DNA of 64,000 bases from Serratia surfactantfaciens (GTDB taxonomy: Bacteria > Pseudomonadota > Gammaproteobacteria > Enterobacterales > Enterobacteriaceae). Where the stretch lies: assembly GCF_001642805.2 (NCBI RefSeq), contig NZ_CP016948.1, forward strand, positions 3,720,001 to 3,784,000, written 5' to 3'. Both the position numbers and the translations under genes were made by a program. Positions 2,316 through 41,857 of the stretch are shown one piece after another (the first letter of the stretch is position 1; the number at the start of each line of letters is the position of its first letter). The notes beneath the pieces were generated by a model. It was given only the letters and a program-made list of their open reading frames with translations, did no database searches and was not told the origin of the DNA.

Positions 2316-2355
2316 GTCTTAATCATTGTCACTACGCTTTGATGGAATCAGGTAT

Positions 2356-3240
2356 ATGAAAAGACAAATCATTAAATTTATTACGAAGAATCTGGCCGTA
2401 TTGGCCCCCGAATTCAAGGCCAGATTGCTCTACAAAAAGGCATTTGGCAAACCGTTAAACTTACAGGCGCCATCTACCTGGAATGAAAAGATCAATCACC
2501 TGAAGTTGAATGGCTATAGTCATAATGCGTTGGTGAAGCAGTGCGCGGATAAATACGCGGTAAGACAGTACATCAAAGATCAAGGGTGCGAAGAGATCCT
2601 TAATGAATTGTACTTTGCCTGTGACTCAGTAAGCGATATCCCGTGGGACTCATTGCCGGATAAGTTCGTGATCAAAGGGAATCATGGTTCCGGATATAAC
2701 CTGATTTGCCAGAATAAAAAATTACTGAATATCAAGAGCGCTGCCAAATTGATCGATGGCTGGATGAGGGATGATTATTGGAAAACCTATGTAGAGCTCA
2801 ACTACAAAGGAATACAAAAGAAGATCATTGGGGAGAAGTATATCGAATCGGCCAATGGCCACGGACCTGAAGACTATAAGATCTATTGCTTCCGCGGTGT
2901 GCCATACTGCACCTTGCTGTGCGTCGGCAGAGAGACCGGGTCGCCAAAATATTACTTCTTTGACAAAGATTTCAAGTTTCTGTGCTACAGCGAAGACTGC
3001 CAGGCATTAAACCAGGAACAGATAGACGCTTTCGTAAAACCTGAAGGTTACGACGAGCTGTTTGAGTATGCCGCACGCTTGTCGACGCCCTTCGAGTTTG
3101 TTCGCGTTGATTTCTACATTTCCAAAGGTCAGATCATTTTCGGCGAGCTGACCTTTACCCCTTCCGCCGGGTTGGATACGGATATCCTGCCGCCAACCGA
3201 TGTTTTACTTGGCGAGATGTTGACGTTGCAACAGCACTGA
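2356..3240 (+). CDS. TupA-like ATP-grasp ligase
   Basis: The protein (294 residues from this ATG) resembles the ATPgrasp_TupA family, named after a teichuronopeptide synthesis protein. ATP-grasp enzymes activate a carboxylate as an acyl phosphate and join it to an amine. Visible landmarks are the N-terminal family block with STWNEKINHLK, a glycine-rich ATP loop KGNHGSGYN near residue 105, VRVDFY near 248 and the metal-binding-type segment FGELTFTPSAG near 261. An in-frame TTG at 2326 would add ten residues; the ATG at 2356 fits family N-termini better, though its Shine-Dalgarno is weak. It starts 40 bases after the hydroxylase stop and is probably cotranscribed. Base composition is clearly AT-richer than most of the window. 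Making an amide bond to hydroxylysine is an inference from context only. Confidence 0.7.
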   Translation: MKRQIIKFITKNLAVLAPEFKARLLYKKAFGKPLNLQAPSTWNEKINHLKLNGYSHNALVKQCADKYAVRQYIKDQGCEEILNELYFACDSVSDIPWDSLPDKFVIKGNHGSGYNLICQNKKLLNIKSAAKLIDGWMRDDYWKTYVELNYKGIQKKIIGEKYIESANGHGPEDYKIYCFRGVPYCTLLCVGRETGSPKYYFFDKDFKFLCYSEDCQALNQEQIDAFVKPEGYDELFEYAARLSTPFEFVRVDFYISKGQIIFGELTFTPSAGLDTDILPPTDVLLGEMLTLQQH

Positions 3241-3333: not shown

Positions 3334-3460
3334 CGCCTGTTCCATACCGCCGTTACAGCACAGCTCCCAGCCTCCTGCCCCTCAGCCTGCCCAACACATG
3401 ATTCAGGAACAATACCTCAGCCAGGCTGCATAACCGCTTGAAAAACAATGGCATTAATAC

Positions 3461-3479
3461 ATTAATAAGAATCGTTTAC
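3461..3479 (+). promoter_or_regulatory. Weak Fur-like site upstream of the candidate sRNA
   Basis: The 19-mer beginning ATTAATAAGAATC matches the Fur consensus at about 12 of 19 positions. It lies roughly 40 to 55 bases upstream of the TATAAT box of the candidate sRNA. In AT-rich DNA such a match has limited weight. Confidence 0.25.
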
Positions 3480-3515
3480 ATATTTATAATAAAATGTTCT
3501 ATATGTATAGGTAGC

Positions 3516-3586
3516 TATAATATAAGATACCGGAAAGTTTCCCTGGTGTTGTTGTGTGTCTTTGCCCTATTTTATAGGGCTTTTTT
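3516..3586 (+). ncRNA. Candidate ArcZ-like small RNA (promoter to terminator)
   Basis: A perfect TATAAT at 3516-3521 would start a transcript near 3528, ending at the intrinsic terminator at 3564-3586, so about 59 nt. Positions 3538-3551 read TTTCCCTGGTGTTG, identical to the conserved target-pairing segment of ArcZ as I recall it from E. coli and Salmonella. The predicted size is close to the processed 3' ArcZ fragment (about 56 nt). The rest of the sequence and the terminator stem differ from ArcZ, and the arcB/elbB neighbourhood of true arcZ is absent, so this would be a second seed-sharing RNA. No good -35 box is seen. It may instead be released by processing from the 3' end of the upstream operon mRNA. 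Antisense or chance origin is not excluded. Confidence 0.5.
3564..3586 (+). terminator. Intrinsic terminator of the candidate sRNA
   Basis: GCCCTA at 3564-3569 pairs with TAGGGC at 3575-3580 around TTTTA, followed directly by six T residues. This is a typical plus-strand rho-independent terminator, with a U-tail of the kind Hfq-bound sRNAs carry. Confidence 0.85.
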
Positions 3587-3857
3587 CACTGATATTATTG
3601 GATAACCTTGTGTTTACATGCCTTCACGCAGATTCTCTTCCTCACAAAAATCATAACCATTTCTAATTAATTTTAACCCCTCTTATTCCTGTACTCGCCA
3701 ATAATAACAATGGGTTGCTATTAACTCTGCAAAGCGACTGACGGCCCGCTTGTGGGCTTCGGCCGCAATTCGCCGCCGGAATGCCCATCCAAAGGATAGG
3801 TTTTTACCGGGCGCGTACGGGTGCTAATATCGACTTTTTCCGAGGATGTTGACCTGC

Positions 3858-4772
3858 ATGTTATTGTCTAACCGGAATTTTATTTCCGCGCTTCTGGCGC
3901 TCGCCATCGGCGTTGGGCTGCCGGGCAGCGTGCTGGCCAGGCCCGATCTGGAACGCAAGATCGGCGTTACCGTCGCCGATAGCGATTCAACGGATTACCG
4001 CTTCAGCGATCTGCGCTTCGCCTCCGCCGATGGCGAGCGGCATTATCGCATTCGTATCGCTCAGCCGCGTCAGGCGCCTGCGCCTGGTGGCTATCCAACG
4101 ATTTATTTCCTCGACGGCAATGCGGTGCTAATGGAGCTGAACGCTGCCCTGCTGGCAAAACTGGCGGCGGCGAAGCGGCCGCCGGTGCTGGTCATGATCG
4201 GCTATGACAACGATCTGCGCATCGATGCCGCCGGCCGTGCCTACGACTATACGCTCCCTCTGCCGGCAAGCATGAAGAAACCGCCGCGGGCCGTGGGAGG
4301 CGCTGATGCCTTCTTGCAGTTGATTGAAACGCAGATCAAACCGGCGATCGCCGCCAAAATAGCGATCGATCCGCAGCGACAAACGCTGTGGGGGCACTCC
4401 TACGGCGGGCTCTTCGTTCTGCACACGCTATTCACCCGTCCCGCCGCCTTCCAGCGCTACATCGCCGTTGAGCCCTCGCTGTGGTGGGGGCAGGGTATGA
4501 TCCTGCGGGAAGCGCAACAGATGATCGAACGGCGCCCGACGCTGGCGGCAAGTCTGCAATTATGGGTTGGTCTGGCGGAACGCGATCGCGCGGCACCGCC
4601 CGGCGTAAAGAACCCCGCGCTGCCGGCGGACGCGACGCATTTGCTGGCCGAACACCTGGCGCCGCTCAACGGCCTTGCCGTCGGCTACCGGGAATGGCCC
4701 GCCTTAGGGCATGGTGCCATGCTGGGCGCCACCATCGAGCCGGCGCTGCGCGGCGTCATATCAGAGGACTAA
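3858..4772 (+). CDS. Secreted IroE-like siderophore esterase family protein
   Basis: This alpha/beta-hydrolase belongs to the IroE/esterase-D-like group (COG2819 type). IroE is a periplasmic esterase that opens trilactone siderophores of the enterobactin/salmochelin type. Seen here: a signal-peptide-like N-terminus ending near SVLA, an oxyanion-region motif YFLDGN, the nucleophile elbow GHSYGG near residue 180 and a late GHGAM that can supply the catalytic histidine. An ATG at 3846 is in frame, but GAGG at 3842-3845 directly abuts it; the ATG at 3858 is spaced 12 bases from GAGG, so the start is uncertain. Iron context (IucD-like hydroxylase upstream, iron receptor genes 9 kb downstream) supports a siderophore role, but the substrate is not shown by the sequence. 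Confidence 0.72.
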   Translation: MLLSNRNFISALLALAIGVGLPGSVLARPDLERKIGVTVADSDSTDYRFSDLRFASADGERHYRIRIAQPRQAPAPGGYPTIYFLDGNAVLMELNAALLAKLAAAKRPPVLVMIGYDNDLRIDAAGRAYDYTLPLPASMKKPPRAVGGADAFLQLIETQIKPAIAAKIAIDPQRQTLWGHSYGGLFVLHTLFTRPAAFQRYIAVEPSLWWGQGMILREAQQMIERRPTLAASLQLWVGLAERDRAAPPGVKNPALPADATHLLAEHLAPLNGLAVGYREWPALGHGAMLGATIEPALRGVISED

Positions 4773-41829: not shown

Positions 41830-41857
41830 CGCACCAACACCAGGGACCCACTTTAAA

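Follow-up and report, generated by a model that had tools for sequence, protein, structure and literature searches.

A putative small RNA gene of Serratia surfactantfaciens carries the ArcZ seed and has sibling loci in the genus and beyond

Results

A conserved locus with the ArcZ seed

In the window, namely the 64,000-nucleotide stretch of Serratia surfactantfaciens DNA analysed in this study, we have identified a locus that is very probably a real and conserved small RNA (sRNA) gene with a product of ~60 nt. We put at roughly 70% the probability that this locus is a stand-alone gene for a trans-acting and probably Hfq-bound sRNA, which is one of several siblings equipped with the seed of ArcZ under different promoters. 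The transcription, Hfq binding, processing, signal and targets of this RNA are predictions from its sequence.

All parts of the locus lie on the plus strand. The hexamer TATAAT at 3516-3521 would be the -10 element of the sRNA promoter, from which the start of the presumed ~60-nt RNA (3527-3586) is placed. The ArcZ-type seed TTTCCCTGGTGTTG occupies 3538-3551 and is exact in 14 loci of what we call kind B, the window locus and its orthologues; it is followed by the linker TTGTGTGTCTTT at 3552-3563, which weakly matches the corresponding part of RprA and is identical in 11 of 11 aligned orthologues. An intrinsic terminator, detected by a terminator scan, then extends over 3564-3586 with a 7-bp stem (GCCCTAT TTT ATAGGGC, 3564-3580) and six T residues (3581-3586), and the stem is kept in orthologues. 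The -10 hexamer, the seed and the terminator reported in the first-pass annotation were thus borne out to the base, and there is indeed room for a directly made RNA of a size similar to processed ArcZ. No open reading frame of 60 or more amino acids covers the locus. Pfam assigns the upstream neighbour (2326-3240, plus strand) to TupA-like ATP-grasp proteins, the gene preceding it (1020-2315) to lysine/ornithine monooxygenases and the downstream neighbour (3846-4772, plus strand) to putative esterases, all of which serve as context only.

The exact 14-nt seed occurs once in the window, and one additional site was found when up to two mismatches were allowed (0.30 expected). The sequence GGTCCCTGGTGTTG at 41835-41848 on the minus strand, two mismatches from the seed, has stops in several flanking frames.

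Taken in the window by themselves, the promoter and the terminator are statistically weak. No -35 match accompanies TATAAT at 3516, which is also absent from the list of a promoter scan; that scan gave sites at 3462-3490 and 3571-3598 in the region (two found vs 1.0 expected). The terminator scan gave one site vs 0.7 expected, so that the terminator by itself does not stand out from shuffled sequences. This weakness is offset, nonetheless, because both elements are conserved in orthologues. The predicted fold of 3528-3587 has an energy of -15 kcal/mol and a z-score of -3.25.

When 3440-3600 was used as the query of a DNA search, matches were obtained in 27 of 30 Serratia genomes. The long matches, present in 15 of the 30, are the kind-B orthologues, and the shorter ones are sibling loci. 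The seed is exact in 14 of the 15 orthologues, while its start is altered in the remaining one (G025, reading ATTACCTGGTGTTG); the conservation of seed and terminator in related Serratia genomes, on which the first-pass annotation had made its proposal depend, is hence present. Among the 11 orthologues taken into the alignment, the stretch from AAAG through seed and linker to terminator is identical in eight; the loop is longer by one base in G003, G002 and G025 with the terminator stem kept, and G002 and G025 have one additional base ahead of the seed. Ten of the 11 have the same -10 block, CTATAATATAAG, and G025 has TATAGT. In G002, G003 and G025, the sequence upstream is strongly divergent, as opposed to the near-invariant stretch from AAAG to the terminator in all 11. 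The block TTTCCCTGGTGTTGTTGTGTG was found in 28 stretches of named genomes, every one of which (28/28) belongs to Serratia. A DNA search of plasmids with the window locus gave nothing similar, and relatives of the upstream monooxygenase were not found in a viral scan.

The iron neighbourhood

The siderophore operon has the orientation of the locus and stops at 3240, ~300 bases upstream of it, and it is conceivable that the RNA is a 3' fragment of the operon mRNA that is freed by RNase E and signals iron starvation. The cleavage consensus RN/WUU given in passages of PMC11331407 (the slash marks the cut) indeed fits AG/UUU ahead of the seed. The orthologues in G002, G003 and G025, however, stand outside a siderophore context: no siderophore gene was seen near them, and each adjoins, on its downstream side, a similar protein of the molybdopterin-oxidoreductase type (Pfam on the G003 protein only). 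Two of these out-of-context orthologues (G002 and G003) have the -10 block unchanged and the third (G025) has it in variant form, so release from an iron-operon mRNA is not needed, and we regard the fragment origin as unlikely.

Control by Fur through a RyhB-like box over the promoter was also considered and rejected. The best match to the Fur consensus is 12 of 19 positions, and 47.8% of 500 randomised sequences equalled it; this chance-level match further disfavours an origin in the iron operon. The Fur-linked signal and the iron linkage suggested by the first-pass annotation were therefore not upheld, the latter as a general feature in view of the three orthologues outside a siderophore context, and the iron neighbourhood is context rather than evidence.

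Relation to ArcZ and RprA

The window locus is not a member of the ArcZ family as defined by Rfam. At the cut-offs of Rfam (gathering scores of 66 bits for ArcZ, RF00081, and 70 bits for RprA, RF00034), no family including ArcZ matched anywhere in the window, and a permissive scan of 3380-3845 gave no ArcZ match up to an E-value of 10. The sole arcZ match in this genome is the canonical locus (83.3 bits, C1:3850203-3850308), ~127 kb from the window locus. Family searches placed kinase, receiver and Hpt domains of the arcB type beside it, together with an elbB-like protein whose DJ-1/PfpI match is below the cut-off only; we take these neighbours to be arcB and elbB. The window locus is flanked by ATP-grasp and esterase genes, so its location is not of the arcB/elbB type, and the first-pass annotation was right that arcB and elbB are not nearby and that the flanks and the terminator differ from those of ArcZ. 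Its proposal of a second ArcZ-type sRNA holds for the seed, which is exactly that of ArcZ, but neither for the covariance model, which matched the canonical arcZ locus elsewhere in the genome and not this one, nor for the word "second", as four non-arcZ loci with seed and terminator exist in the genome. What is common to the window locus and ArcZ is therefore the identical 14-nt seed, a terminator after it and the shortness of the RNA (56 nt for processed ArcZ); in contrast, the window locus has no Rfam match and lacks the GCGC inner stem, the long 5' part and the arcB/elbB neighbours, and its terminator and promoter are different.

The best Rfam match to 3380-3845 is instead RprA, at 24.6 bits vs the cut-off of 70 and an E-value of 1.5 over the whole library; mir-9209 matched on the opposite strand with 14.8 bits vs a cut-off of 90, and nothing further was found. 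The locus might accordingly be read as a diverged RprA-type sRNA that has acquired the ArcZ seed and acts mainly via its RprA-like linker. Indeed, linker and terminator resemble the 3' part of RprA, and the linker TTGTGTGTCTTTGCCC, invariant in the 11 aligned orthologues, is in part common to kinds C and D of the siblings described below. The score is, however, far under the cut-off, and a canonical rprA is found separately in this genome (71.6 bits); an RprA origin is hence weak, and this second alternative appears decidedly improbable.

Seed accessibility and possible targets

According to passages of PMC11331407, ArcZ acts with Hfq via this seed after RNase E cuts at RN/WUU just 5' of the seed, and processed ArcZ in E. 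coli is 56 nt long. In the stand-alone gene that we favour, the -10 element at 3516 would set a start ~11 nt ahead of the seed, and the transcript, terminating at 3586, would contain the seed but not the long 5' part of ArcZ. With such a start, little processing would be needed, while RNase E could still trim the RNA just ahead of UUUCCC. The seed is predicted to be open (0.98 unpaired) when the RNA is counted from the seed and half paired via CCGG (0.48 unpaired) when it is counted from 3527; this CCGG pairing is not conserved in the aligned orthologues.

The RNA would then base-pair with mRNA sites of the ArcZ type in response to its own signal. This genome contains ACAAGGGGAAATCC, presumably the site in the rpoS leader to which ArcZ binds. 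In a duplex test on the rpoS leader, the fraction of shuffles that were as good was 0.277 for ArcZ, 0.100 for kind B, 0.067 for C, 0.040 for E and 0.220 for F, and the presumed site was missed for all five RNAs. Because ArcZ itself neither beat its shuffles nor found the site, the test is without power, and the targets are predicted from seed identity. In flhD, the longest complementary runs are 7-9 nt in a scan that had no control, and a target search with CACCAGGGAA in the window gave nothing except the antisense of the locus itself. As any RNA with this seed would be expected to share the partners of ArcZ, the RNA might alternatively be a decoy that binds factors or sponges normally acting on ArcZ without mRNA targets of its own, which we judge to be very unlikely.

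Siblings in the genome and the genus

It is well supported that the ArcZ seed recurs across several kinds of sRNA-like loci. This genome has six exact matches: one in a LacI-type coding frame (L001), canonical arcZ (L004), the window locus and L002, L005 and L006, in each of which a hairpin and a T-run follow the seed. In 30 Serratia genomes, the exact seed gave 150 matches in 29 genomes, and the reversed pattern as a control gave none. These counts, together with conservation in 15 of 30 genomes, leave it barely credible that a seed-like 14-mer stands by chance ahead of a plain terminator without RNA function, even though chance alone would give 0.7 terminator-like sites in the region and 16 of the 149 seed contexts are labelled coding.

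We classified the 149 distinct contexts in the genus from the sequence after the seed: namely, 29 arcZ, 14 kind B, 27 C, 15 D, 16 E and 26 F/G, plus one of prophage type, 16 labelled coding, three of kind H and two others. By this classification of ours, 127 of the 149 are sRNA-like and fall into at least six kinds, with one coding-looking F/G row (L241) left out of the 127 and one member (L066) failing the terminator test; the coding labels are given mostly by pattern alone, the frame being checked for L001 only. An Rfam scan of 16 loci, three kind-B orthologues included, gave no sRNA family at cut-off, and its four matches were all tRNAs or CRISPR repeats. The siblings may share one function. 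In kind H (L096, L123 and L133), the seed lies directly 3' of a GC-rich inverted repeat, with no clear terminator after it. Another recurrent exact match, in L116, L124, L086 and L250 of Serratia and L154 and L169 of other genera, is apparently antisense to a similar coding sequence, which may thus offer an mRNA target site that is perfectly complementary.

Neighbours of kinds E, F and G

Genes for LuxR and LuxI, quorum-sensing proteins assigned by Pfam, recur beside part of the siblings (LuxR adjoining L006 and L117; LuxI in L077). We counted luxR/luxI within 1.5 kb, where the flank was that long, in 207 distinct seed contexts. Such a neighbour is present in 43 of 68 terminator-bearing contexts of the class "GGC/other" (kinds E, F and G), with Serratia contributing 23 of the 43 and 12 other genus codes the remaining 20; it is present in none of the 44 arcZ, 11 kind-B, 22 kind-C and 16 kind-D contexts (0/93 together), in one of 19 viral ones and in none of 27 without a terminator. 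Because the 68 include coding-looking rows that pass the terminator test, such as L116 and L154, real siblings probably have such a neighbour even more often. Of the loci in this genome, L006 (kind F) has a luxR within 1.5 kb and L005 (kind E) lacks one. In L264 (C1:4962000-4972000 of this genome), a kind-F locus has a LuxR gene and, in the stretch searched, no luxI; a tRNA and an integrase-like frame nearby make a genomic island probable. The LuxR beside L150 has an identical counterpart in Pantoea sp. 1.19 and is related, among others, to ExpR and to quorum-sensing regulators of Yersinia.

The kind-G loci L117, L131, L148, L046 and L085 lie upstream of luxR and have, ahead of the seed, an inverted repeat (CCGGCCAG or similar ... 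CTGACCGG) whose CTGACC arm is found again in the terminator; an alternative fold with attenuation into the same-strand luxR is therefore conceivable. Pairing of the seed with luxI was tried on 18 loci, 10 of which were set aside as luxI starts at the locus edge; in none of the eight scored loci did fewer than 5% of shuffles do as well (the lowest value was 15.5%), and five of the eight had a called start that lay inside luxI.

Kinds E, F and G resemble by position the YenS/EsaS sRNAs (EsaS being, we presume, the name of the YenS-similar RNA of Pantoea stewartii), in that they adjoin luxR/luxI like the sRNAs beside quorum-hindered luxR genes. The likeness is one of position; YenS is 165/105 nt long, and the window locus, unlike these sRNAs, has no luxR neighbour. 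According to passages of PMC3493969, YenR activates YenS, which represses yenI and in addition has a yenI-independent stimulating effect on motility; a similar RNA in Pantoea stewartii is mentioned there.

Other genera and phages

The seed was found in 114 of 198 sampled genomes of the family and in 26 of 197 of the order, where the reversed control occurred in two. A T7 run 20-48 bases after the seed was present in 195 of 392 family genomes, the counts per genome being inflated by several registers within one T-run. Among the matches listed, most are canonical arcZ, and by our reading a non-arcZ form is present in at least 23 non-Serratia genomes of at least 13 genus codes.

Viral sequences held 23 stretches with seed and T7, 21 of which look sRNA-like by eye and two (L295 and L297) do not; the scripted terminator test, unlike this reading, passed all 19 distinct viral contexts. 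Family searches placed an endolysin, an Rz-like spanin and a small terminase around the seed locus of L305, an endolysin and a small terminase in L310, a small terminase in L299 and DinI-like proteins in L298 and L317. The loci of L305, L310 and L299 are thus adjacent to, or flanked by, lysis genes and the small terminase gene, possibly a conserved slot for phage sRNAs. Another viral contig (L315:1-2050) has luxI, luxR and a seed-plus-terminator locus together. DNA searches gave nothing similar for L314 in plasmids, for L298 and L310 in phages and for L298 in E. coli genomes; L300 and L309 had partial matches in phages, in two records (35% covered) and 13 APSE-type records (47% covered), respectively.

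Discussion

The wider set would consist of sRNA genes that have one seed in common but differ in promoter, linker and terminator, some of them beside luxR or in phages. As far as passages of PMC8383071 describe them, RyhB-1/RyhB-2 and DapZ/GcvB are likewise separate genes with a common pairing sequence and different expression; those are pairs, whereas here many genes with unrelated flanks have one seed. Phage-borne sRNAs that act on host RNA networks are also known from AgvB and StxS, the latter being reported to activate rpoS like host sRNAs (passages of PMC4104026 and PMC12197685). AgvB mimics a target of GcvB, however, while the phage loci described here bear the host sRNA's own seed.

Descriptions of ArcZ present it as a hub encoded by a single gene, and the words "paralog", "copies" and "homolog" are absent from a 2024 ArcZ review (PMC11331407). 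We recognised no report of ArcZ-seed siblings in the literature searched by title and abstract, a scope outside which most subscription papers fall, and there was none in passages of PMC6749038, PMC4046660, PMC8557413, PMC12112432, PMC9438474, PMC6027161 and PMC4773443.

The evidence is about evenly balanced on a broader proposal, namely that TTTCCCTGGTGTTG is a shared regulatory address. Many otherwise dissimilar sRNA genes of Enterobacterales, in core intergenic regions, beside quorum-hindered luxR genes and in temperate phages, would then have acquired the ArcZ seed by convergence or capture, placing a single ArcZ regulon under the influence of several signals and mobile elements. If true, this would explain the effect of YenS on motility beyond yenI, and the yenI-independent effect described in passages of PMC3493969 becomes a testable question. 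If several promoters make one seed, furthermore, deleting arcZ in Serratia and related bacteria would show only part of its effect, RNA chimeras might be credited to the wrong sRNA, and rpoS, motility and other targets of ArcZ would be within direct reach of quorum sensing and prophages.
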